Shown here piece after piece: positions 41,961-56,473 of a stretch of DNA of 64,000 bases; positions within the stretch are counted from its first letter, which is position 1, and each line of letters opens with the position of its first letter. The notes under the pieces are model-generated. The model had not been told where the DNA came from. It searched no databases and saw nothing but the letters and a program-made list of their open reading frames with translations. The stretch comes from Chthoniobacterales bacterium (lineage in GTDB: Bacteria; Verrucomicrobiota; Verrucomicrobiia; Chthoniobacterales; DASVRZ01). Location of the stretch: the NCBI GenBank assembly GCA_039930045.1, contig JBDSQB010000002.1, positions 326,286 to 390,285 on the forward strand. The letters run 5' to 3'. A program made the position numbers and the translations under genes.

Positions 41961-44572
<2,612 letters not shown>

Positions 44573-44591
44573 CTAACTTCGGCACACGTCG

Positions 44592-45221
44592 ATGTTAAAA
44601 ATGGAAATCCCGCGCAAGGCCATCTACCGGCTTTCGCTCTACTATCGCAGCCTGCAACGATTGAAGCACAATGGCGTCGCGACCGTTTCTTCAGCGACTC
44701 TGGCCAAGGCAGCCGGCGTGAAACCAACCCAACTCCGCAAGGACCTCACCTACATCGGCCAATTTGGCACACGCGGTCTCGGCTATGCGGTGGACGACAT
44801 GTGCGAGCGGCTTAGCGCGGCGATCGGACGGACGGGTTTCCAACCGGTGATTCTGGTGGGCGTGGGACATCTCGGATCCGCTCTGGCTCGTTATGAGGGG
44901 TTTGCCAAGGAAGGTTTCGAGATCGTTGCAGCCTTCGATGCGGATGCCGGAAAACGCCAGGCCATCAGCGGTGCCGACGCCAGCCTGAAGGTTCGCTCCA
45001 CTGCCGGAATGAAGGATTTCATCCGAAAAAAAGCGATCAAGATGGCGATTTTGTCGGTTCCCGTCGTCGTGGCTCAGGAGGTGACCAATGAACTCGTTGA
45101 CGCAGGCATCCAGGCGATTCTGAATTTTTGCCCGACGGTTTTGCAGGTTCCGCCTTTGGTCTTTGTGAATAATGTTGATCTCGCGATTGAACTGGAGAAC
45201 CTCAGTTATTTCATTCGCTAA
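44592..45221 (+). CDS. rex: Redox-sensing transcriptional repressor Rex
   Basis: 209 residues. The winged helix-turn-helix (ATVSSATLAKAAGVKPTQLRKDLTYIGQFGTRGLGY) is followed by a Rossmann domain (VILVGVGHLGSALARY) that binds NADH/NAD+, and a C-terminal swapped helix ending LENLSYFIR. Rex releases DNA when the NADH/NAD ratio rises and controls fermentation and respiration genes. An ATG three codons in (MEIPRKA) is an alternative start. It is the first gene in a run that leads, after 13 bases, into the T2SS operon. This is unusual. Confidence 0.95.
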   Translation: MLKMEIPRKAIYRLSLYYRSLQRLKHNGVATVSSATLAKAAGVKPTQLRKDLTYIGQFGTRGLGYAVDDMCERLSAAIGRTGFQPVILVGVGHLGSALARYEGFAKEGFEIVAAFDADAGKRQAISGADASLKVRSTAGMKDFIRKKAIKMAILSVPVVVAQEVTNELVDAGIQAILNFCPTVLQVPPLVFVNNVDLAIELENLSYFIR

Positions 45222-45234
45222 TCCCCTCCCTCCA

Positions 45235-46173
45235 ATGCGACTTTCAGTTCTCCACGTTCTTGCCGCGCTTCTAGCTTTCGCAGCGACGTCTCAAGCCGGC
45301 GCCACTTTTCTGCAAAACCTGAATGGCGCGGAATCCGCCCAGCTCCCGCAGTGGATGGATGGTCCGCCCATGGCCACACCGGCGAAACATGCCACGGTCA
45401 GTTTTCCGATCAATCCGCCCAAGGCTGAGGATGATTTGATTGTGACAGTTTTTTTTAATGAGCAACCCGGCGGCTTTTTGCGGGTTTATTGGGACGATGG
45501 ATTTAATAAGGAGATGCTGACCGAGAACTTGGCCGAGGGAATTGGCATGGCGAACCGCCGCACGCTGGTGATCAAGCGCGGGACGATGGTGGCCAAGGGT
45601 CTGCTCACTTTTCAGTCGAGTGAAACTCAACTCGGCGTGGACCGCATTTACTGGCAATGGAACCGCCAGCAGTCGGCCTACTTGGACGAGTCCTATTTTC
45701 CGGGCGGACTTCTCGGACGCAGCGGTGAATGGTTGCACGATGACGAGATTGACGGCCTACCCGCGACTCCGCGCAACGATTTCTGGCAGGGCGAGGTGGT
45801 CACCGCTCCGATCATCACCGCGCCAGTGCGGATCGAGCGCGGAGTGCAATTTGTCGCCGAGCTGCCCGAATTGCCAAAATTTGTCCGTGTGCATACGAAA
45901 GTTTCCGGTCTTCCGCTCGGCACCAAGCTCACGCTCTGGGTGAATAACAAACCCGCCGGCGAGGTCTCCGTGGTCGTTCCAGACTTGAGTGATCCGGGGC
46001 TTTTCGAGACGCAAGAAGGAGGTCTCAGCTACACCGGCTGGCGCGAGGCCAGCTTGCTAGTCGAGGCGGCTCTGCTAACAGTGGGAGAGAATCATTTCTA
46101 CTTCGAGGCTGGTAAAGAACTCCCGGCACTGGCCCTAAAAGATTTCGACGTTCAACTGCAATACCCCCAATAA
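45235..46173 (+). CDS. Secreted protein of unknown function at the head of the T2SS operon
   Basis: 312 residues from the ATG at 45235 with a signal peptide (MRLSVLHVLAALLAFAATSQA, then GATFLQNLNG). The rest is predicted beta-rich (VTVFFNEQPGGFLRVYWDDGF, TLVIKRGTMVAKGLLTFQS and EVSVVVPDL), with a conserved-looking YWQWNRQQSAYLDESYF segment. No catalytic motif was recognised; carbohydrate-binding or jelly-roll folds are possible. It begins 13 bases after rex and ends 10 before gspG, so it belongs to the same operon and may be a T2SS substrate or accessory part. Confidence 0.78.
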   Translation: MRLSVLHVLAALLAFAATSQAGATFLQNLNGAESAQLPQWMDGPPMATPAKHATVSFPINPPKAEDDLIVTVFFNEQPGGFLRVYWDDGFNKEMLTENLAEGIGMANRRTLVIKRGTMVAKGLLTFQSSETQLGVDRIYWQWNRQQSAYLDESYFPGGLLGRSGEWLHDDEIDGLPATPRNDFWQGEVVTAPIITAPVRIERGVQFVAELPELPKFVRVHTKVSGLPLGTKLTLWVNNKPAGEVSVVVPDLSDPGLFETQEGGLSYTGWREASLLVEAALLTVGENHFYFEAGKELPALALKDFDVQLQYPQ

Positions 46174-46183
46174 CCAACCAGTC

Positions 46184-46636
46184 ATGCACTCCCCGCTTCA
46201 TTTCACTCCGACTCGAATCACCGGACGCCGCTCGGGCTTCACTTTGATCGAGATCATTCTCGTTCTCTCCATCATTGCCATCCTCATGGGTGCCGTCATT
46301 TACAACATTTCCGGCAACCTCGACGACGCAAAAACCATCACTGCCCGCACTGGCATTCAATCGATCACGACCAGCCTCAAACGCTACGAAATGTCGAACC
46401 TGAACGCGCCTTCAACCGAGCAGGGCCTGGAGGCACTGGTCACCATGCCGAGCGGCCAGCCCAAGCCCCGCGGCTGGATGCAACTCCTTAAGGAACTCCC
46501 GATGGACCCTTGGGGCCAGCCTTTCCAATATCGTAATCCCGGTGTCCACAACACCACCAGCTACGATGTCTATTCTCTAGGCCCCGATAAAAAGGAGAGC
46601 GCCGATGACATCGGCAATTGGAGTGATCCCAAGTAA
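46184..46636 (+). CDS. gspG: Major pseudopilin GspG
   Basis: 150 residues with leader MHSPLHFTPTRITGRRSG before FTLIEIILVLSIIAILMGAVIYN and Glu at +5. GspG features: TARTGIQSITTSLKRYEMSN, LPMDPWGQPFQYRNPG and YSLGPDKKESADDIGNW near the end (the calcium-binding loop). It should form the pseudopilus of the type II secretion system. The gene following overlaps it by 32 bases. Confidence 0.94.
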   Translation: MHSPLHFTPTRITGRRSGFTLIEIILVLSIIAILMGAVIYNISGNLDDAKTITARTGIQSITTSLKRYEMSNLNAPSTEQGLEALVTMPSGQPKPRGWMQLLKELPMDPWGQPFQYRNPGVHNTTSYDVYSLGPDKKESADDIGNWSDPK

Positions 46637-47159
46637 TCAAAGGACGGTGTTTGGGAAACGCCAGCGGGCGTTCACGCTGATTGAGGTCGCGCTCGCGATG
46701 TTCATCGTCGTGCTGGTAATTGGAATCGGACTCCCCTTTGCCACGGGCATGGGACGCGAAAGCCAGTTGCGCGAACCAGCCAGTGAATTGAAAAAGTTCG
46801 CGCTCACCGCCCGCCGCCGCGCGGTCACGCAACAGAAAACGGTGGAGATTTTGCTGGAAAATAACCGCTACGTCCTGCGCGATGCCGTTCTAGAGGACTC
46901 CACCAGCCGTGCGAAGATTGCGCCCGAAACGGACCACGCAGAGATCGATTCCTACACCTTGCCGAAAAATATCACTTATTCCGTCAAGCGCTGGGACGAG
47001 ACCCAATTTGCCGCCAAGGCCGACGCGCGCTGGCGCTTTCTGCCGACTGGTTTGTGCGAACCGATCACCGTGCACTTCGTGCGCGATCAGGATTTTCTCG
47101 AGTTCAGTTTCAATCCGCTCACCGCTCAAACTGAGGACGAAAGTTTCCTCTTCCAGTGA
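46605..47159 (+). CDS. gspH: Minor pseudopilin GspH
   Basis: 184 residues. The leader precedes A-FTLIEVALAMFIVVLVIGIGLPFA with Glu at +5, so cleavage is after Ala rather than Gly. The segment ASELKKFALTARRRAVTQQKTVEILLE after the helix and the later FLPTGLCEPITVHFV are typical of GspH. The start at 46605 lies inside gspG; ATG there is the first in frame. It is joined to gspI by shared stop/start bases (TGATG). Confidence 0.86.
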   Translation: MTSAIGVIPSNQRTVFGKRQRAFTLIEVALAMFIVVLVIGIGLPFATGMGRESQLREPASELKKFALTARRRAVTQQKTVEILLENNRYVLRDAVLEDSTSRAKIAPETDHAEIDSYTLPKNITYSVKRWDETQFAAKADARWRFLPTGLCEPITVHFVRDQDFLEFSFNPLTAQTEDESFLFQ

Positions 47160-47551
47160 TGCAACTTTCGCGGCTCAGATCGGAAAGCGGAATGCTTCTA
47201 CTAGAGGTGATGCTGGCGGTGATCGTTTTTTCACTGGCCGCAGTATCGCTGGCAGTGGCCCTAAATGAATCACTCGATGCCTTTGCCGACGTGCGCCGCC
47301 AGTCGGAAATTCGCCTGCAACTCCAAAGCGCGCTGGCCGAGGCAATCGGGCAAAAACTGACTGTGGGAAAAGAAACCCTGCAACTCGGCACCGGCACAGT
47401 GGTTTACTCACGCGAAGTGACCCTGCTGGACTGGAAAAATCAAAAAAAGGATCCGGTTTCCAATCTCTATCAGGTGGTGATTCACGCCGATTGGCAGGAA
47501 GGCGGCCGCAAGGTGCAACGGGAGGCGATGCAATATGTTTTCCAGAATTAA
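47159..47551 (+). CDS. gspI: Minor pseudopilin GspI
   Basis: 131-residue class protein starting MQLSRLRSESG, then MLLLEVMLAVIVFSLAAVSLAVALNESLDA. Gly precedes Met rather than Phe, and Glu at +5 is kept. The position between gspH and gspJ and the length suit GspI, which with J and K caps the pseudopilus tip. The ATG at 47159 was preferred over GTG at 47156. Confidence 0.85.
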   Translation: MQLSRLRSESGMLLLEVMLAVIVFSLAAVSLAVALNESLDAFADVRRQSEIRLQLQSALAEAIGQKLTVGKETLQLGTGTVVYSREVTLLDWKNQKKDPVSNLYQVVIHADWQEGGRKVQREAMQYVFQN

Positions 47552-48182
47552 GCGTGTCGCCGGCGGAAACCGGTCTGCGTTTACCCTGATCGAGGTGGTT
47601 CTCGGCGTGCTCATTCTGGGCCTGCTTGCCGGCGTACTTTTTACACTGGTTGAAAGCACGATTGGCGCGGCGGCGCAGTTGAGCATCAAGCAAGGTCAGA
47701 CTCAGGAATTAAATGGGCTGATCGAAATTTGCCGTGAGACTTTTGCGACTCTGGATGGACGCGCGCAGTTCACCTCGACCGTCAAACCCGCCACGGGTGG
47801 CGGCTACGTGCAGGAACTTCGAATCGAGGACGGCCCGCTGGCTTTCTCCTGGCAGGGGAATGGGACTGAGACAGGAATCACCACGGTTTCGCCGCGTCCG
47901 CAGGCCAATGGATTGCTGGCTTTTTGTCTTTTGCACGAACCCGACGCGGACAGCACAGAGAACGATAGCAAGCTGGCGCCCAAGCCGAAATGGTTTGTCC
48001 TAGTCCGCGATCTGAAGAAGCTGGAATGGCGCTTTTTCGATCCTCGCGCCGCGACCTGGCGCAAAGAATGGGAGGAAGGCGGCGTGCGGCCCAGCATGGT
48101 CGAACTGGTGATCCAATCTCCCGCCAGCCCCGAAGAAACCCGTGTGGTTTTCCCCATGCTTCCCCCCAGCCCATCACAATGA
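47535..48182 (+). CDS. gspJ: Minor pseudopilin GspJ
   Basis: 215 residues with leader MFSRIKRVAGGNRSA before FTLIEVVLGVLILGLLAGVLFTLVE and Glu at +5. The soluble part starts GLIEICRETFATLDGRAQFTST and resembles GspJ (LVRDLKKLEWRFFDPRAATW). It overlaps gspI by 17 bases and gspK by 4. Confidence 0.86.
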   Translation: MFSRIKRVAGGNRSAFTLIEVVLGVLILGLLAGVLFTLVESTIGAAAQLSIKQGQTQELNGLIEICRETFATLDGRAQFTSTVKPATGGGYVQELRIEDGPLAFSWQGNGTETGITTVSPRPQANGLLAFCLLHEPDADSTENDSKLAPKPKWFVLVRDLKKLEWRFFDPRAATWRKEWEEGGVRPSMVELVIQSPASPEETRVVFPMLPPSPSQ

Positions 48183-49060
48183 AATGGAAGTCGCATCAGC
48201 GCGGCTCGGCTCTTTTGCTCGTCCTCTGGTCGATCATTACAATGTCCGTCGCCGTCCTCGGAGTTGTCGAATACATCCATTACAATTTGGATGAAACTCA
48301 GGGGCTGAATCTGAATTTCGAGCTTCGGCAAATCGCCGAATCTGGCATTGCCGTGGCGTTTTCCCCGCAGATTTCCGAGGGCGATCCGCTGCTGATGGCT
48401 GACATGGGAACGAATGGCGGCCGCTACGAGGTCGTGCTGCACAGCGAGACGGCTCGGTTGCACATCAATCAAATTCTCCAAAAGGGTCGCGAGGATATTC
48501 TGCAACGGCTTTTTGTGGCGTGGGGAGCACCCAGTTCGGATGCTCGAATGGTGGTTGCCAAGCTTATTCTTTGGAGCGGGCGCACCGGCGATGCGACGGA
48601 TAATTATTCAGTGGAGCGTGAGTTTGCCTCGGTCGAACAAATGCGTGACGTCGAGGGCATGGATAAAATCGAGAAACTGCATCCGGACTGGATGAGCGCG
48701 TTTACGATCTGGGGGAATGGAAAAATTGACGTAAACGACGCGTCCGCCGATATTTTGCGAGCCTTCTTCGGAATTGGTGAGCGGAAAGCGGAAAGTTTCG
48801 TGCAATCCCGCTCTGGACCTGACAAAAAAGAGCACACTCTCGACGACCAGCCTTATACCGATATGAAACTCCTCGCTGGCGCTCTCGGTTTTACGGACAA
48901 ACAATTCGCGCCCTACGCCCAGCAGGTATCGCTCGAGACACTTCTAACCCGAGCCGAGAGCACGGCGTTTTTGAATGAGCGGAAGCATCAGATTCGAGTT
49001 ATTTTCAACCGCAAGGCACAACCCCCCGTGATTTACCAATGGCAGGAAGTCCCCCTCTAA
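48179..49060 (+). CDS. gspK: Minor pseudopilin GspK
   Basis: 293 residues from the ATG that overlaps the gspJ stop. Leader MKWKSHQRG, then SALLLVLWSIITMSVAVLGVVEYIHYN; as in other GspK proteins the +5 residue is not Glu. Hallmarks are ARLHINQILQ, KIDVNDASADILRAFFGIGERKAESFV and the long alpha-helical middle. GspK sits at the pseudopilus tip with I and J. It overlaps gspL by 22 bases. Confidence 0.9.
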   Translation: MKWKSHQRGSALLLVLWSIITMSVAVLGVVEYIHYNLDETQGLNLNFELRQIAESGIAVAFSPQISEGDPLLMADMGTNGGRYEVVLHSETARLHINQILQKGREDILQRLFVAWGAPSSDARMVVAKLILWSGRTGDATDNYSVEREFASVEQMRDVEGMDKIEKLHPDWMSAFTIWGNGKIDVNDASADILRAFFGIGERKAESFVQSRSGPDKKEHTLDDQPYTDMKLLAGALGFTDKQFAPYAQQVSLETLLTRAESTAFLNERKHQIRVIFNRKAQPPVIYQWQEVPL

Positions 49061-50328
49061 ATTCTACTCTCGCATTGGCTTCCCCAGAAAAATCACGTGG
49101 CAATTCCCGGAAAAATCCGGATACGCTGCTGCTTCGTCCCGCCGCTGACGTTGGCTGGGAACTCTGGGCCACGGCTCCAGGTGCTCCACGTGAGGCGGGA
49201 CGTTTTGAAACCCTACCTGATCTTGAGAAAAGGAACCTCCTCGCCGTCGCGCTGCCTGCTGATTCAGTGCTGGTGATCTCGCGCTGGCTGCAAACCAACG
49301 ATGACAGCCTGCTGCCAGAGATGGTGCAGATTCTTCTGGACCGCCAAGGCCTAATACCTCGTGAGGAAGGCGGCAAATCGTTCTCTTTCGTCCCAGTCCT
49401 GCATGAGGAAAACCGCACGCTGGTAGCGATCCGACTCCTCGGAACACAAATCCCAGCCGGTTTATGCCAACCTCAGGTGGAGCGTTTTGAAATCGCCGCT
49501 GACCTCCAGCCGCTCATCCGCGATGGACTGACTTTGTGGCGCGAGGCTGGACGGCTGGTCGCGGCATTTTCACGCGCTGGCTCGCTGATTCATCTCCAGT
49601 CGTTTCATGAAGGCGTGCTGAGCGAGAGCATTGCCATTGAACTCCTCTGCACCAAGCTGCAGTTGGAGACGGAGGAAATTTTAACTTCGGAGTTAGGTAT
49701 TTCTCTTCTGGGCGATTTCACCGATGACGAGACTTCACTCCTTACGTCTATTTTTGCAACGACTCCCCGACACGCTCCTATCGAAGCGCCGTTTTTGCCA
49801 CTTGTCGTATCAGACCTGACTCCACCGCTGGTCGAGACGCAGCGGCAGAAAGTACGCACCCGTCAACGCTTGGAACGTGTCCTCTTAAGTGCGGCTGGGA
49901 TTTACGGCCTGCTACTTTTGGGGCTGATTCTGAGTGTGGCTTGGCTTAGTTATAACAACCGCAGCTTACGCAAGAAGATCGCTGCCGATCAGCCAACAGT
50001 TGAAGCCATTCGTTCAACCAATTCCCGTTGGAAAGCGATCGAGGCGGCCATCAATCCCGCGATTTATCCGGTAGAGGTTTTACTGCAATCCGCCTCACTT
50101 TTGCCAGAGGATGGTGTTCGCTTCACTGTCTTTGAGGAAAATAACAATCGAGTCACAATCCGTGGCGAATCGAATAGCGCCGCAGCTGCTTTCAAACTCG
50201 TCGAGGCCATCAAGGGTAAGTCTGAGCTCAATTATTTTGATTGGGAAATGCCCAAGCCCAACATTTTACCGAACGACAAAGCCGAGTTTCTGATCAAAGG
50301 AGAGCCACCCAATGCGCCAACTCACTAA
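49039..50328 (+). CDS. gspL: GspL-like T2SS inner-membrane platform protein
   Basis: 429 residues: a cytoplasmic N-terminal part (~1-270; TLLLRPAADVGWELWATAPG), one membrane helix near residues 275-305 (AAGIYGLLLLGLILSVAWLSYNN) and a periplasmic ferredoxin-like end. This is the order of GspL, which recruits the GspE ATPase. Family similarity is by architecture and by position between gspK and a GspM-like gene. The actin-like fold cannot be confirmed here. Confidence 0.72.
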   Translation: MAGSPPLNSTLALASPEKSRGNSRKNPDTLLLRPAADVGWELWATAPGAPREAGRFETLPDLEKRNLLAVALPADSVLVISRWLQTNDDSLLPEMVQILLDRQGLIPREEGGKSFSFVPVLHEENRTLVAIRLLGTQIPAGLCQPQVERFEIAADLQPLIRDGLTLWREAGRLVAAFSRAGSLIHLQSFHEGVLSESIAIELLCTKLQLETEEILTSELGISLLGDFTDDETSLLTSIFATTPRHAPIEAPFLPLVVSDLTPPLVETQRQKVRTRQRLERVLLSAAGIYGLLLLGLILSVAWLSYNNRSLRKKIAADQPTVEAIRSTNSRWKAIEAAINPAIYPVEVLLQSASLLPEDGVRFTVFEENNNRVTIRGESNSAAAAFKLVEAIKGKSELNYFDWEMPKPNILPNDKAEFLIKGEPPNAPTH

Positions 50329-50845
50329 ACTCGAAAAAACGCTCATCATTGGCTTGGTGGGAACCATTTTCCTGCTCGCAAATCTCTTTGGCGTTTCTGC
50401 GCTGCTGCGCCACCGCCGGGCCTTGCAGCTCGATGCCATAACTCTCAAAGGCGAGCGCGATGAATCCAACATTTGGCTAAATGAAAAAGACAAATGGCTG
50501 ACCCGGAAAGCGTGGCTCGACAAGACCCAGCCCAAGGCATCCCAACCGGAGGCGGCTCAATCCACGTTCTTTGAGGATCTGCAAAAATCCGCCCGCACTC
50601 TCAACCTGGCCATCAATGAGCAGGGCTTTGGTGAGGTCTCCGAGAGCACCTACTTTCAATCCGTTGCCGTCAAAATGCGGATCACCGGCTCTTTGGAAAA
50701 CACTACTCGCTGGCTGGCATCACTTCAACGCCCGGAGCTTTTTCAAGCCATCACCAGCTTTTCGCTGAAGAGTGAAAAAGAACCACCCAATGTGAATGTG
50801 GAACTGGAGATCTCCAAATATTACCGTCCGAGCAATGGCAGCTAG
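50312..50845 (+). CDS. gspM: GspM-like T2SS inner-membrane protein
   Basis: 177 residues. An N-terminal membrane helix (LIIGLVGTIFLLANLFGVSALL) is followed by a periplasmic part with a coiled segment (LQLDAITLKGERDESNIWLNEKDKW) and a ferredoxin-like domain near the end. It matches GspM or PilO in layout. It overlaps gspL by 17 bases and the next gene by 11. Confidence 0.7.
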   Translation: MRQLTKLEKTLIIGLVGTIFLLANLFGVSALLRHRRALQLDAITLKGERDESNIWLNEKDKWLTRKAWLDKTQPKASQPEAAQSTFFEDLQKSARTLNLAINEQGFGEVSESTYFQSVAVKMRITGSLENTTRWLASLQRPELFQAITSFSLKSEKEPPNVNVELEISKYYRPSNGS

Positions 50846-51488
50846 AACCCATATTTTTGCTTTTATCCTGCTGGGTTTGGTTTGCGCAAATGCCGCAGAA
50901 CCGATCATCCCACAAGGCTACGCGCCGGAGCGGTATGAGCGTATCTGGAAGAAATCTCCTTTCACCGTCGCTTCCGTGATTGCGGCTGAACCCGTAAATA
51001 ATACCACCTTTGCCGACTCCCTCACATTGGCGGGTTTGCTGACCATCGATGGCAAACCATTAGTGACTGTTGTAGCCAATGATTCGCAGGAAACGCAGTT
51101 GGTGGAAGCAGACAAGCCAAATGCAGCCGGGCTACAGGTGGTGAGTTTCGTCAATAATCTGGATCCGACCAAAGTGGAAGTCGTTCTTAAAAAAGGTGAT
51201 GCGACTGGCACGCTTCATTTTGTCATCAACGAGACTCCCGCTCCGCCTCCCGACCAGCCGAATGGGGGCCAACCCCCTCGGGTGGTGCAGCCTCGCCTGA
51301 ACAACAACCAAAATATTCCCAATCCCAGCCAGCCTCGCGTGCTCCCCCGCGCTACTGGACCCGTGATGCCGATGCCAGGCGGCCCTCAAATTATTCGTCG
51401 ACGTCAGCTTCAACTCCCAGGAGCCAACCGGCCCAACCAGCCAACGCGCCCCAACTCGCCCAAGGCCAATGTCATTCCACCTCCCTAA
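50835..51488 (+). CDS. GspC/PilP-like secreted protein with Pro-rich C-terminus
   Basis: 217 residues from ATG 50835 with a signal peptide (MAARTHIFAFILLGLVCANA, then AEPII). Residues ~30-130 contain YERIWKKSPFTV, LTLAGLLTIDGKPLVTVVAND and FVNNLDPTKVEVVLKKGD, similar in order to the HR domain of GspC and to PilP, which contact the secretin. No membrane helix beyond the signal peptide is seen, unlike GspC. The last ~70 residues are Pro/Asn/Gln/Arg-rich and low complexity. It directly precedes gspD with no spacing. Assignment is by context and pattern. Confidence 0.65.
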   Translation: MAARTHIFAFILLGLVCANAAEPIIPQGYAPERYERIWKKSPFTVASVIAAEPVNNTTFADSLTLAGLLTIDGKPLVTVVANDSQETQLVEADKPNAAGLQVVSFVNNLDPTKVEVVLKKGDATGTLHFVINETPAPPPDQPNGGQPPRVVQPRLNNNQNIPNPSQPRVLPRATGPVMPMPGGPQIIRRRQLQLPGANRPNQPTRPNSPKANVIPPP

Positions 51489-53771
51489 ATGAAAAAACTG
51501 ATTCTCTCTTTTCTATTCAGCCCGCTTATTTTGAGTGGCTCGCTTTCGGCGCAAAACGAAGTCTCTGGCGATGTGCCGCCGGAAAATGTCGAACCGATGG
51601 CCACTCCCATTTCTTCCGTGAAGAAGACCGATCCAAATGCCGATCCGAGCATGGAGGATAAAATTAGCGTTAATTTTCCCGATACGACTCTGACTCAAAT
51701 CTTGCTCAACTACGAGCGGCTCAGTGGCAAACGTCTCATTAAAGACGCATTACTGGCGGGCCAAAACATGAGCATCGTCGTGGCGGAGCCGGTCAGCAAA
51801 CGCGAGGCCATCTCCATTATCGAGGCCACGTTGTTGCTGAACAATTACGCCCTCATTCCCTTTGGCGAGAATCAGATGAAAATTGTTAGTATCCAGAATG
51901 GCAAAAATCCACGCAGCGAAGGCGTGGCCATCTATACGACACCCAATTCCTTGCCAGAAGGTGACCAAGTCGTGTCCTATTTCATGACCTTCAAATATCG
52001 CGACGCACTGCAAGCCGCGCAGGAACTTGGACAGGCATTTGTGCCGCATCCATATGGGATCATATTTCCGGTTCCAAATGCGCAGGCGGTGATCGTTACC
52101 GAGAGCACATCCGTCATCCGCCGCCTTCTGGAGTTAAAGGAACTCATCGATGTGCCTCCGGCGCGGATCATTTCTGAATTCGTCCCCTTGATCCGCGCCG
52201 ATGCGGAGCGGGTCGCTGAAACGATCACCAAAATGATCGACGCACAGAAAAACAATGCCTCTACCTCGGGCAGCGCTCCTCTCGCCAATAATGGAGCTCC
52301 GCCTCCTCCGAATGCGAATGGTCAGTTGGTCCAAGCCAATAATGTTGGCGGTGGTGATGAATCGGCCTCGAACAGCCTCACGGCGGGGCAAATCCAACTC
52401 ACGGCCGATACCCGCACCAATCGCATTCTAGTTATTTCCCGGCCGTCGAGTTTCCCGTATGTGAAAAGCCTGATTCAGGAATTTGACCGCTCGGTCGGGC
52501 TCACGGAGCCGCTCGAAGTCTCGCTGCGTTATGTGAAACCCAGTGACATTCTGCAAGTGCTTGCCGACCTCCTCACCGAGGATGAAAAAGACGCGGCCGC
52601 CGGTGGTACCAATGCCATTCAGCAGCCCAAGACGCCAGCGAACAATCAGAGCCGGTCCACCAATAACAACAGCCGCTCCAGCTCCAATAGCAACTCGGGA
52701 TCGCTCACTCGTGAGGACTCGCTTGAGGATCCAGAAACTGACATCGGACCCGAGTCCCGCATCGTTGGAAAAACTCGCATCATCGCCGACAACAAAGCCG
52801 GGAAAGTCCTCGTCATTGGTCCGCCCGAAAGCCTCCAGAAAGTTCGCGGCATCCTCGGGCGACTCGACCACAAACCCCAGCAGGTCTATCTCTCGGCGGT
52901 CATCGGCCAGCTCAGCATTACAGGGAACCAACAGTTTGGCATCGACTACCTCCAGTCATTCCTCGGCGGTAAAGGCTCCGGAATTGGCGGCACCGCGATT
53001 ACCTCGTCTCCCGCGAGCACGGCGACTTTCACGTCCCCGGCGGCTTTGAATGCGATTAGCAAACTTCCCGCCCTTAACGGCCTCAGCCTTTACGGCACCG
53101 TGGCCGACAACCTCAGCATCTACGTGCGTGCCTTGGAATCGAGCAATCGATTCAAAGTCCTCTCACGTCCGGCAATCTATGCGTCGAATAATGAAAAAGC
53201 CGTCATCTCCTCGGGGCGGCGCATTGCTGTTCCAACGCAATCGTTGACGAACAACAACCTGAACTCCAACAACACGGCCTCGGTTGTCTCCAATATTGAT
53301 TACGAAGATGTCGTTTTGAAAATCGAGATCGTGCCGCAGATCAATTCCGACCAGGAAGTCACCATGAAGATCGCACAGGTGAACGACAGTGTGAATGGCA
53401 GCCAGACCGTCGCGGGTCAGACGGTGCCAACGATTGCCACTCAGGAAATTCGGACCACGGTCACTGTGGCGAATAAAAACGTCGTCGTCCTCGGCGGGCT
53501 CGTCACCGAATCCACCAGCGATGATCGGAGCAAGATTCCCGTCTTGGGCGACATTCCCTATCTCGGCGCGCTCTTCCGCAACACCAGCAAAAGCAAAACA
53601 CGGGACGAACTCCTCGTTTTCATCCAGCCCAATGTGGTCTCAAACAACGACGAAGCCCAACGTGAAAGTCTGGGCGAGGAAGCTCGCAGCGAGGTGGGCG
53701 TCGAAGGCCGCACGATGGCTGAGGGCGTCCCCACTCCGACTCCGGCGCGGTTGCAGAGATATGGCAAATAG
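51489..53771 (+). CDS. gspD: Secretin GspD
   Basis: 760 residues with a signal peptide (MKKLILSFLFSPLILSGSLSA). Periplasmic N domains run ~50-430; DKISVNFPDTTLTQILLNYERLSGKRLI is the first. Two Ser/Asn/Gly/Pro-rich inserts lie at ~254-300 and ~379-418. The secretin core is ~500-720 with LSAVIGQLSITGNQQFGIDYLQ, FKVLSRPAIYASNNEKAVI and the end motif VPVLGDIPYLGALFR-type KIPVLGDIPYLGALFRN. It forms the outer-membrane pore of T2SS. Its ATG follows the upstream stop with no gap. GspE and GspF must be encoded elsewhere. Confidence 0.94.
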   Translation: MKKLILSFLFSPLILSGSLSAQNEVSGDVPPENVEPMATPISSVKKTDPNADPSMEDKISVNFPDTTLTQILLNYERLSGKRLIKDALLAGQNMSIVVAEPVSKREAISIIEATLLLNNYALIPFGENQMKIVSIQNGKNPRSEGVAIYTTPNSLPEGDQVVSYFMTFKYRDALQAAQELGQAFVPHPYGIIFPVPNAQAVIVTESTSVIRRLLELKELIDVPPARIISEFVPLIRADAERVAETITKMIDAQKNNASTSGSAPLANNGAPPPPNANGQLVQANNVGGGDESASNSLTAGQIQLTADTRTNRILVISRPSSFPYVKSLIQEFDRSVGLTEPLEVSLRYVKPSDILQVLADLLTEDEKDAAAGGTNAIQQPKTPANNQSRSTNNNSRSSSNSNSGSLTREDSLEDPETDIGPESRIVGKTRIIADNKAGKVLVIGPPESLQKVRGILGRLDHKPQQVYLSAVIGQLSITGNQQFGIDYLQSFLGGKGSGIGGTAITSSPASTATFTSPAALNAISKLPALNGLSLYGTVADNLSIYVRALESSNRFKVLSRPAIYASNNEKAVISSGRRIAVPTQSLTNNNLNSNNTASVVSNIDYEDVVLKIEIVPQINSDQEVTMKIAQVNDSVNGSQTVAGQTVPTIATQEIRTTVTVANKNVVVLGGLVTESTSDDRSKIPVLGDIPYLGALFRNTSKSKTRDELLVFIQPNVVSNNDEAQRESLGEEARSEVGVEGRTMAEGVPTPTPARLQRYGK

Positions 53772-53806: not shown

Positions 53807-56473
53807 ATGACTCCAGAACACCGCCGGCTCGAAGAAGATCAGCGGCGTGAAAAAAACTGGAAGCGCTGGGGCCCATATTTGTCCGAGCGGCAATGGGGCA
53901 CGGTGCGCGAGGATTATTCGGAAACCGGCGAGGCGTGGGAATACTTTCCGCATGATCACGCCCGAAGTCGCGCCTACCGCTGGGGCGAGGATGGACTCCT
54001 CGGATTCACGGATCGTGAATGCCGCCTGTGTTTTTCGCTGGCTCTTTGGAATGGGCAGGATGCCATTCTGAAGGAGCGGCTCTACGGGCTCACCGGCCAC
54101 CAGGGAAATCACGGCGAGGACGTGAAGGAACACTATTACTACCTCGATTCCACCCCGACTCATTCCTACTGCAAGGCGCTCTACAAATATCCGCAGGCGG
54201 CGTTTCCTTACGACAAACTGGTAGCTGAAAGTGCCCGGCGCTCGCGGCTCGATCCGGAATACGAAATCGAGGACACGGGTGTTTTCAATGAGAGCCGCTA
54301 TTTCGATATCTTCGTCGAATACGCTAAGGATGACCCGGATGACATTTACATCCGCATCACAGCGCACAATCGAGGGCCTGAGGCGGCTCCCCTGCATTTG
54401 CTGCCAACTTTGTGGTTTCGCAATTCCTGGATCTGGGGCTGCCGTCATGACGGATGCAGTTTGAAGCCGTCGCTCTGGTTGGAGGACGGCATTGTGCGCA
54501 CGCGTCACCAGTTGCTGGAGGGTTTTACTTTCTGGGCGGCGAAGTCGAACACGGGAGTTGCACCCGAATGGCTCTTCACAGAAAACGAGACGAATTCGCC
54601 GCTTTTTTTCAACTCCCCGAGCTACACATCCTATTTCAAGGACGCCTTTCATCGACGCGTAGTGAATGGCGAACTCGGTGCCGTTTCGCCCAAACAACGA
54701 GGCACGAAAGCCGCCGCGTGGTATCAAACCGTCATCCCAGCCGGAGGCGAAGTGACCATCGACCTGCGGCTCGCGATCCAGCCGCGCTGGCATGGAGCAC
54801 CGAGCCAGGAAAAACGCGAAACGGTATTCGGTCATCGTCTGGCCGAGGCCGATACCTTTTATCGCCGCAACTTCTGGGACGGCGCCACGCCCGAGGAGGC
54901 GAACGTCATGCGCCAGAGCTACGCCGGACTTCTCTGGAGCAAACAATTTTACCATTACGTGGTCGAAGACTGGCTCGACGGGGATCCCACTCAGCCCGTG
55001 CCGCCTGAAGGCCGAAAACTCCTGCGCAACCACAACTGGCGTCACCTCTTTAACCGCGACATCATCTCCATGCCCGATAAATGGGAGTATCCCTGGTATG
55101 CGGCCTGGGATCTCGCTTTTCACATGATCCCAATGGCTGAAATCGATCCAGATTTTGCCAAGCAGCAACTGCTCGTCTTCCTGCGCGAGTGGTATATGCA
55201 CCCCAATGGGGCGCTGCCCGCCTATGAGTGGAATCTCTCGGATGTAAATCCACCCGTCCAAGCTTGGGCCGCCTGGCGGGTTTACAAAATCTCTGCGCCG
55301 GAGGGTCAGCGCGATCGGGATTTTCTCGCGCGAACATTTCAAAAGCTCGTGATGAATTTCACCTGGTGGATCAACCGGAAGGATGACGAGGGTCACAATG
55401 TTTTCTCCGGCGGATTTCTGGGATTGGACAACGTGGGTGTTTTCGACCGATCCAAGCCACTGCCGAATGGAGCAAAATTGCAGCAGGCCGATGGCACCGC
55501 CTGGATGGGTTTCTACTGCGGCAGCATGCTCTCCATGGCAATCGAACTCGCCTTGGAGCGTCCAGTTTACGAGGACATGGCGTCGAAGTTTTTCGAGCAC
55601 TTTATCCGCATTTGCGACGCCATCAACGGTGCCCAGGGCAATGGTCTCTGGGACGATGAGGACGGCTTTTACTATGATCAGATGTTGTCGGAACACGAGC
55701 GGCAGCCGCTGAAAGTGAGATCCGTCGTGGGCTGGATACCGTTGCTCGCGGTCGAACTCATTGACCGCAAAACCCTGGACAAACTCCCTGGGTTTGCCAA
55801 GCGCGCGCGTTGGTTTCTGGAAAACCGTGGCGACCTGTCGGGCAGTATCAGTTATCTGGAGAACAACACCCAGCCGCACGACTATCTGCTCCTCGCAATG
55901 CCCACGCGCGACCGCCTCCGGCGCACCTTGTCCTATGTTTTCGATGAGGACGAGTTTCTCTCCCCATACGGACTTAGATCGCTATCGAAGTGGCATCAAA
56001 AAAATCCCTACACCTTCGCTTTCGATGGCGGCAGCTCCAGCGTGAGCTACGATCCGGGTGAATCTACAACGGGCTTGTTCGGCGGAAATTCCAATTGGCG
56101 CGGGCCCATTTGGTTTCCGGTGAACTATCTCTTCATCGAAGCCTTGGAGCGCTACCATCGCTACTACGGCGACAGCTTCAAAATCGAATATCCCACCCGC
56201 TCTGGGAAAGAGCTGACGTTGGGTGAAATCGCCAAGGACATTTCCGCGCGTCTGGGGAGTCTGTTTCTGCGCGATGCATCCGGCAAACGGCCTTTCGACG
56301 GCCCGGACTGGCCATTTTCCCACGATCCTCATTTCCGCGACTATGCGCTGTTCCATGAATATTTTCATGGAGACACCGGTCGCGGCTTGGGTGCCAGTCA
56401 TCAGACGGGTTGGACCGCACTCGCCACTCGCTGTCTTTCCGACCGAATCTGGCAGCGACATCACCAGAAATAG
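53807..56473 (+). CDS. GH63-like glucosidase (MGH1-type glycoside hydrolase)
   Basis: 888 residues, without signal peptide, so probably cytoplasmic. The family pattern is clear: NWRHLFNRDIISMPDKWEYP, WYAAWDLAFHMIPMAEIDP (Asp435 is a likely catalytic acid), NGALPAYEWNLSDVNPP and SVSYDPGESTTGLFGGNSNWRGPIW (Glu752 a likely base). The catalytic roles are inferred from GH63. Substrate may be a glucosylglycerate, mannosylglycerate or oligosaccharide; this cannot be decided. It lies 35 bases after gspD and could be read through from the T2SS operon. Confidence 0.88.
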   Translation: MTPEHRRLEEDQRREKNWKRWGPYLSERQWGTVREDYSETGEAWEYFPHDHARSRAYRWGEDGLLGFTDRECRLCFSLALWNGQDAILKERLYGLTGHQGNHGEDVKEHYYYLDSTPTHSYCKALYKYPQAAFPYDKLVAESARRSRLDPEYEIEDTGVFNESRYFDIFVEYAKDDPDDIYIRITAHNRGPEAAPLHLLPTLWFRNSWIWGCRHDGCSLKPSLWLEDGIVRTRHQLLEGFTFWAAKSNTGVAPEWLFTENETNSPLFFNSPSYTSYFKDAFHRRVVNGELGAVSPKQRGTKAAAWYQTVIPAGGEVTIDLRLAIQPRWHGAPSQEKRETVFGHRLAEADTFYRRNFWDGATPEEANVMRQSYAGLLWSKQFYHYVVEDWLDGDPTQPVPPEGRKLLRNHNWRHLFNRDIISMPDKWEYPWYAAWDLAFHMIPMAEIDPDFAKQQLLVFLREWYMHPNGALPAYEWNLSDVNPPVQAWAAWRVYKISAPEGQRDRDFLARTFQKLVMNFTWWINRKDDEGHNVFSGGFLGLDNVGVFDRSKPLPNGAKLQQADGTAWMGFYCGSMLSMAIELALERPVYEDMASKFFEHFIRICDAINGAQGNGLWDDEDGFYYDQMLSEHERQPLKVRSVVGWIPLLAVELIDRKTLDKLPGFAKRARWFLENRGDLSGSISYLENNTQPHDYLLLAMPTRDRLRRTLSYVFDEDEFLSPYGLRSLSKWHQKNPYTFAFDGGSSSVSYDPGESTTGLFGGNSNWRGPIWFPVNYLFIEALERYHRYYGDSFKIEYPTRSGKELTLGEIAKDISARLGSLFLRDASGKRPFDGPDWPFSHDPHFRDYALFHEYFHGDTGRGLGASHQTGWTALATRCLSDRIWQRHHQK

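Follow-up and report, generated by a model that had tools for sequence, protein, structure and literature searches.

A redox-sensing repressor gene ahead of a type II secretion operon, and a jelly-roll protein family beside gspG, in a Chthoniobacterales bacterium

Introduction

The closest described counterparts of the locus analysed here are the Rex regulon of Staphylococcus aureus, the gsp operons of type II secretion systems (T2SS) and, for one protein, the N-terminal domain of BcsB. The redox-sensing repressor Rex of S. aureus has the binding motif TTGTGAAW4TTCACAA (PMC2883068). We analysed a 64,000-nucleotide stretch of contig JBDSQB010000002.1 from a Chthoniobacterales bacterium (the window), in which rex, a gene for a 312-amino-acid (312-aa) exported protein, here called sec312, and gspG-H-I-J-K-L-M-C-D lie on a single strand at 44592–53771 with intergenic gaps of at most 13 bases. 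Its Rex belongs to the same protein family as that of S. aureus, and the predicted operators are 18-bp palindromes of the same kind, located at cydAB and further energy genes. As differences, predicted sites here are found at mqnE, polyprenyl synthase and ATP synthase genes, and rex itself has no site and stands before T2SS genes. As in a gsp operon, G, H, I, J, K, L, M, C-like and D form one run; unlike in such an operon, gspE and gspF lie elsewhere, the C-like gene is recognised by fold alone, a jelly-roll gene precedes gspG, and rex stands in front.

A sequence-only reading of this DNA had described the layout as rex, a 312-aa secreted protein and nine T2SS genes separated by gaps of 13 bases or less, and these coordinates hold. 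It had offered two explanations, namely that secretion is tied to the NADH/NAD+ state or that rex merely shares the promoter. At roughly three chances in four, we favour the reading that rex is a passenger before the sec312-gsp operon, that the targets of Rex lie in trans in respiration, and that sec312 is a companion of the T2SS. A canonical rex would, in this lineage, have come to lie directly before sec312-gspGHIJKLMCD, where other lineages often carry gspF. The linkage of rex with secretion is striking, and it is, as far as seen, found in one lineage only and without a Rex site. Of more consequence is that gspG has a conserved jelly-roll companion without a name, in a phylum several of whose T2SS subunits fall short of the curated models. 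Members of the Verrucomicrobiota often live on polysaccharides and so depend on export. The analysis also yields a testable predicted Rex regulon for this order, comprising bd oxidase, menaquinone synthesis and ATP synthase.

Rex and its predicted operators

The rex product matches both PF06971 (helix-turn-helix) and PF02629 (NAD-binding Rossmann) above cut-off. It also matches NCBIfam NF003995 (E 1.7e-68; 230 bits against a cut-off of 126) and Rex in the PDB (E 1e-35 over residues 5–206). By these matches, the 44592–45221 product is certain to be classed as a canonical Rex. Literature searches found no report on the redox-sensing Rex repressor in Verrucomicrobia.

An operator motif, TTGTGAAANNTTTCACAA, was derived from exact TTGTG-N8-CACAA palindromes across the whole genome from which the window comes. 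With 0–1 mismatch it has four sites in this genome, all at respiratory genes: they adjoin cydAB (bd oxidase), mqnE, the ATP synthase a-subunit gene and a polyprenyl diphosphate synthase gene. Each site lies 5' of the family-matching portion of the respective protein. For three of these genes, an open reading frame (ORF) of maximal length would begin at or before the site, and the true starts are therefore taken to lie further downstream. Up to three mismatches, 14 sites are found as against 3 for a control pattern, the target genes having been identified for the best four. A fifth TTGTG-N8-CACAA palindrome is present at C12:91128.

For 38 genomes of the order, occurrence of the motif with at most one mismatch was compared with that of rex. 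The motif was present in 17/17 rex-positive genomes, which include the source of the motif itself, and in 1/21 rex-negative genomes, so that motif and rex agree in 37 of 38. The reversed-pattern control gave sites in none of the 38. In the one exception (G020), rex was not found and four operator-like sites are present; this genome has a completeness of 91%, rex is present in its congener G012, and the gene may be missing from the assembly. Among 17 sites looked at in 17 other genomes, four lie at mqnE and five at atpB, and for eight none of the six target proteins tried gave a match. Because of the co-occurrence with rex across genomes, the empty reversed control and the recurrence at mqnE and atpB, we take the motif to be very likely this Rex's operator. 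It is also in agreement with the published S. aureus motif (PMC2883068). Rex is thus predicted to bind and act in trans at the cydAB, mqnE, F0F1 ATP synthase and polyprenyl diphosphate synthase genes. Two further sites were noted in relatives. One, a loose palindrome, lies in the gspG locus L051 of the rex-positive G031, about 10 kb 3' of sec312, and the other is a strict site in G022 on the same contig as gspG, about 28 kb off.

Rex and expression of the secretion operon

If Rex repressed its own promoter, expression of the T2SS would be tied to the NADH/NAD+ ratio. The operon-like spacing of rex and the T2SS genes speaks for this. However, no match to the Rex operator at three or fewer mismatches occurs within the whole 64-kb window. 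The best matches have six mismatches in the icd-rex gap and five in rex, scores reached by 11% and 9% of mononucleotide shuffles, respectively; at rex and sec312 the best matches have 5–6 mismatches, within reach of 9–30% of shuffles. By this operator test, neither rex nor the T2SS operon is a predicted Rex target. Literature searches found no report connecting the redox-sensing repressor Rex with type II secretion.

The sequence-only reading had proposed that the rex-T2SS layout be sought in other Verrucomicrobiota. It was looked for in loci of the order, in 40 rex loci and in 384 genomes of the class, and was not found. Rex matches are present in 145 of the 384 class genomes and the 312-aa family in 108; both occur in 31, and by eye the two share a contig in the window genome alone. 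Draft contigs weaken each single case of no linkage, but hardly all 30. Fifteen relatives from the order have rex as well as a GspG match, in no case on the same contig (by eye). A tblastn search of the window proteins against the 40 rex loci, eight of which are the same contigs as others and one of which is from Christensenella, returned besides rex only two weak gspD pieces, both in L089. These pieces (35% over 79 aa and 22% over 258 aa) lie 6.5–10 kb from rex with no other gsp match, and L089 was rejected as a case of synteny. Same-contig pairs of rex and GspG in the class, read by eye among the matches listed, are 22 kb (G326), 50 kb (G056) and 160 kb (G284) apart, and in G290, which is one contig, about 870 kb apart; these distances come from about 150 listed GspG places and thus from part of the genomes. 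Rex beside a T2SS was not seen in any other locus examined. Recurrent rex neighbours in relatives are instead miaB-like, dnaX-like and ExbB/ExbD-like genes, named by eye among the clusters listed, many of which are antisense shadow ORFs. As far as seen, the linkage of rex with secretion thus appears private to one lineage.

Because the operon has no recognisable operator and the layout no synteny in the genomes searched, redox coupling is unsupported, and we reject redox control of the T2SS as very improbable. Rex operators can be recognised in this genome and its relatives; those examined lie at respiratory genes and the window contains none, so that the proposal that secretion follows NADH/NAD+ is not supported.

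A separate possibility is that the T2SS has a promoter of its own, inside the end of rex or before sec312, in which case the neighbourhood would be transcriptionally meaningless. Since rex does not precede sec312 in any other locus examined, the promoter there must lie in some other context, as this explanation would have it. Against it, only 13 bases separate rex from sec312, and a simple scan of 44300–46700 found no sigma70-like promoter, although other promoter types are outside the scan and the evidence is weak. The same scan gave one terminator-like site, on the minus strand. The sequence-only reading had named a strong terminator or separate promoter between rex and the 312-aa gene, together with a lack of synteny, as what would refute it; within the reach of this weak scan, neither a sigma70-like promoter nor a terminator-like site other than the minus-strand one was seen. 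We consider an own promoter unlikely.

The preferred reading is instead that Rex most likely just shares a transcript with the T2SS. The 106-bp gap between icd and rex is likely the promoter region, because icd runs the opposite way upstream of rex. A single transcript would probably extend from this gap through rex into the T2SS genes, under a promoter without a recognisable Rex site. Of the two explanations offered by the sequence-only reading, sharing of the promoter is therefore the better supported.

Several observations weigh against treating rex as a mere passenger. The 13-base spacing is operon-like, so that rex and the T2SS genes are probably co-expressed, and this could be selected for. 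The operator search is blind to Rex sites of another form or more than three mismatches away. In four more distant rex loci (L077, L079, L080 and L081), a TTGTG-N8-CACAA palindrome lies about 210–450 bases 5' of rex, and some relatives may thus autoregulate. Finally, the order and class genomes searched included no genome of the window's own family.

The sec312 family

A profile search found sec312 in 25 of 34 gspG-centred loci of the order, always on the same strand and directly upstream of gspG. Twenty further loci were drawn from class matches, ten in the order picked as divergent or unlinked-looking and ten from other orders. Here sec312 adjoins gspG upstream in 12 of the 20 (3/10 in the order and 9/10 from other orders). 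This adjacency is also kept at loci whose other gsp genes are inverted or do not show up in the vicinity (L056, L057, L059, L060, L066 and L067). The remaining loci count against a fixed partnership: sec312 is lacking from nine of the 34 gspG loci and lies away from gspG in eight of the 20 further loci, so that sec312 is not bound to every T2SS. In the first four of the loci just named, from four genomes of family f8, sec312 and gspG run together on one strand, with the remaining gsp matches right next to them on the opposite strand. A permuted order is seen at L136 (G077), with K, L, M, C-like and D followed by sec312, G, H, I and J.

Genes upstream of sec312 were assessed with Pfam, using ten proteins picked as GspE- or GspF-looking. 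In the eight loci checked in this way, gspF (PF00482) is the next gene upstream, and gspE precedes gspF in both cases tested. Greedy gene calling missed sec312 in 11/46 loci, and upstream genes were trusted only if confirmed by Pfam. In 5/16 loci (L042, L043, L045, L051 and L136), the gene upstream of sec312 does not look GspF-like. On these annotations gspF-sec312-gspG is a recurrent gene order, and rex in the window occupies the place that gspF has in those genomes.

Each of the 108 class genomes with any sec312 match has one match, with at most six candidates per genome scored. In a sample of the phylum, 11/288 genomes have a match, four of them outside the class, and these four cover only parts of positions 108–287 of the 293-position model. 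Divergent copies away from gspG were seen at L122 (G005) and L127 (G355); a gene for a protein of about 670 aa lies 7–16 bases downstream of each, and this protein has an N-terminal membrane-like segment (both by eye).

No Pfam match was obtained for any of the 25 members of the family tested. The window member has no NCBIfam match, and its best PDB sequence match (E 0.23) is unrelated. Its structural model (predicted local distance difference test score, pLDDT, 88.2; predicted template modelling score, pTM, 0.84) consists of two jelly rolls and a low-confidence, signal-like N-terminal helix (by eye). The C-terminal jelly roll aligns with the BcsB domain 6yg8_D (Z 11.3; root-mean-square deviation, rmsd, 3.0; 111 residues aligned; 13% identity), and carbohydrate-binding-module (CBM)-like domains of GH86, GH156, GH98 and other enzymes score nearly as high. 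Foldseek whole-chain superpositions gave TM-scores of about 0.2, and the per-domain alignments are the usable ones. The model has the jelly-roll fold of carbohydrate-binding modules; sugar binding is a candidate only, as a shared fold shows no function. The likeness to the BcsB N-terminal domain concerns the C-terminal half, and BcsB is, by its entry titles, also part of an export machine; in contrast, sec312 lacks a sequence match in the PDB, and the remaining parts of BcsB have no counterpart in it. Literature searches found no report joining BcsB, carbohydrate-binding or galactose-binding-like domains and type II secretion.

We propose that sec312 is unrelated to Rex and is a predicted periplasmic protein of two jelly rolls that accompanies the T2SS in this class. 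Its role is probably that of a periplasmic T2SS part, undescribed as far as Pfam, NCBIfam, PDB and literature searches go, and it probably works next to GspG, the secretin or cargo. The CBM-like jelly rolls and the signal-like N-terminal helix (by eye) would also suit a secreted substrate, such as a carbohydrate-binding protein, rather than a part of the machine. However, a single match per genome across the class suits a component better, as does its position by gspG in many families, with gspF on the other side in several loci; cargo is in our view a doubtful assignment. In a tentative extension of the component reading, the family may be an undescribed core T2SS part in one class of Verrucomicrobiota, periplasmic and often encoded between GspF and GspG, which might recruit cargo or link pseudopilus and envelope, in the way that BcsB guides cellulose.

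Gene layout and subunit identities

Coordinates are collected in Table 1. Spacing is 13 bases from rex to the 312-aa ORF and 10 bases from there to gspG, and from gspG through gspD successive genes overlap or abut.

Table 1 Features of the rex-sec312-gsp run and predicted Rex sites of the same genome
Feature	Position	Strand	Remarks
icd, monomeric NADP isocitrate dehydrogenase	42260..44485	-	TIGR00178, 1317 bits; divergent from rex
icd-rex intergenic region, 106 bp	44486..44591		sole intergenic region 5' of rex; presumed promoter; best Rex operator match has 6 mismatches
rex, redox-sensing repressor	44592..45221	+	start may be 44601
sec312, 312-aa exported tandem jelly-roll protein	45235..46173	+	kept upstream of gspG in relatives; signal peptide judged by eye
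gspG, major pseudopilin	46184..46636	+	PF08334 E 1.9e-27; TIGR01710 E 7e-37, above cut-off
gspH-like minor pseudopilin	46605..47159	+	TIGR01708 E 2.4e-7, below cut-off; syntenic homologues
gspI-like minor pseudopilin	47156..47551	+	TIGR01707 E 0.0046, below cut-off; syntenic homologues
gspJ-like minor pseudopilin	47535..48182	+	PF11612 E 5.9e-4, below cut-off; syntenic homologues
gspK-like minor pseudopilin	48179..49060	+	NF037980 E 1.2e-8, below cut-off; syntenic homologues
gspL-like protein	49039..50328	+	PilN PF05137 E 0.0048, below cut-off; syntenic homologues
gspM-like protein	50312..50845	+	NF040576 E 0.0034, below cut-off; syntenic homologues
gspC-like protein, 217 aa; HR/PilP fold core, proline-rich tail	50835..51488	+	AlphaFold core 59-130; 3oss_C GspC
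gspD secretin	51489..53771	+	TIGR02517 E 4.3e-94, 316 bits vs cut-off 351
Own-genome site loci L107, L108, L109, L110	C9:70027, C10:41921, C13:50744, C3:205697		predicted Rex regulon

Only the GspG model is exceeded outright; the secretin is best matched by the GspD model, yet scores 35 bits under its cut-off. Subunits H, I, J, K, L and M score under the cut-offs of their own models or match a related model only (Pfam, NCBIfam), and each has a homologue in the same gene order in relatives. The 217-aa protein before gspD has no sequence match in Pfam or PDB. Its predicted core (AlphaFold, pLDDT mostly above 90) compares with the GspC HR domain at Z 7.0 and rmsd 2.5 over 64 aligned residues by structure comparison; ranks 1–9 are GspC HR and PilP domains, and unrelated folds follow at Z 3.7. 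By this predicted fold the gene is read as GspC-like. Several homologues of gspE and gspF lie elsewhere in the genome, for example at C16:161751–164143.

Downstream, an 888-aa ORF at 53807–56473 lies on the same strand, 35 bases 3' of gspD; it looks glycosidase-like by eye and has no NCBIfam match. A homologue with 50% identity lies a few kb from the sec312 copy in locus L123.

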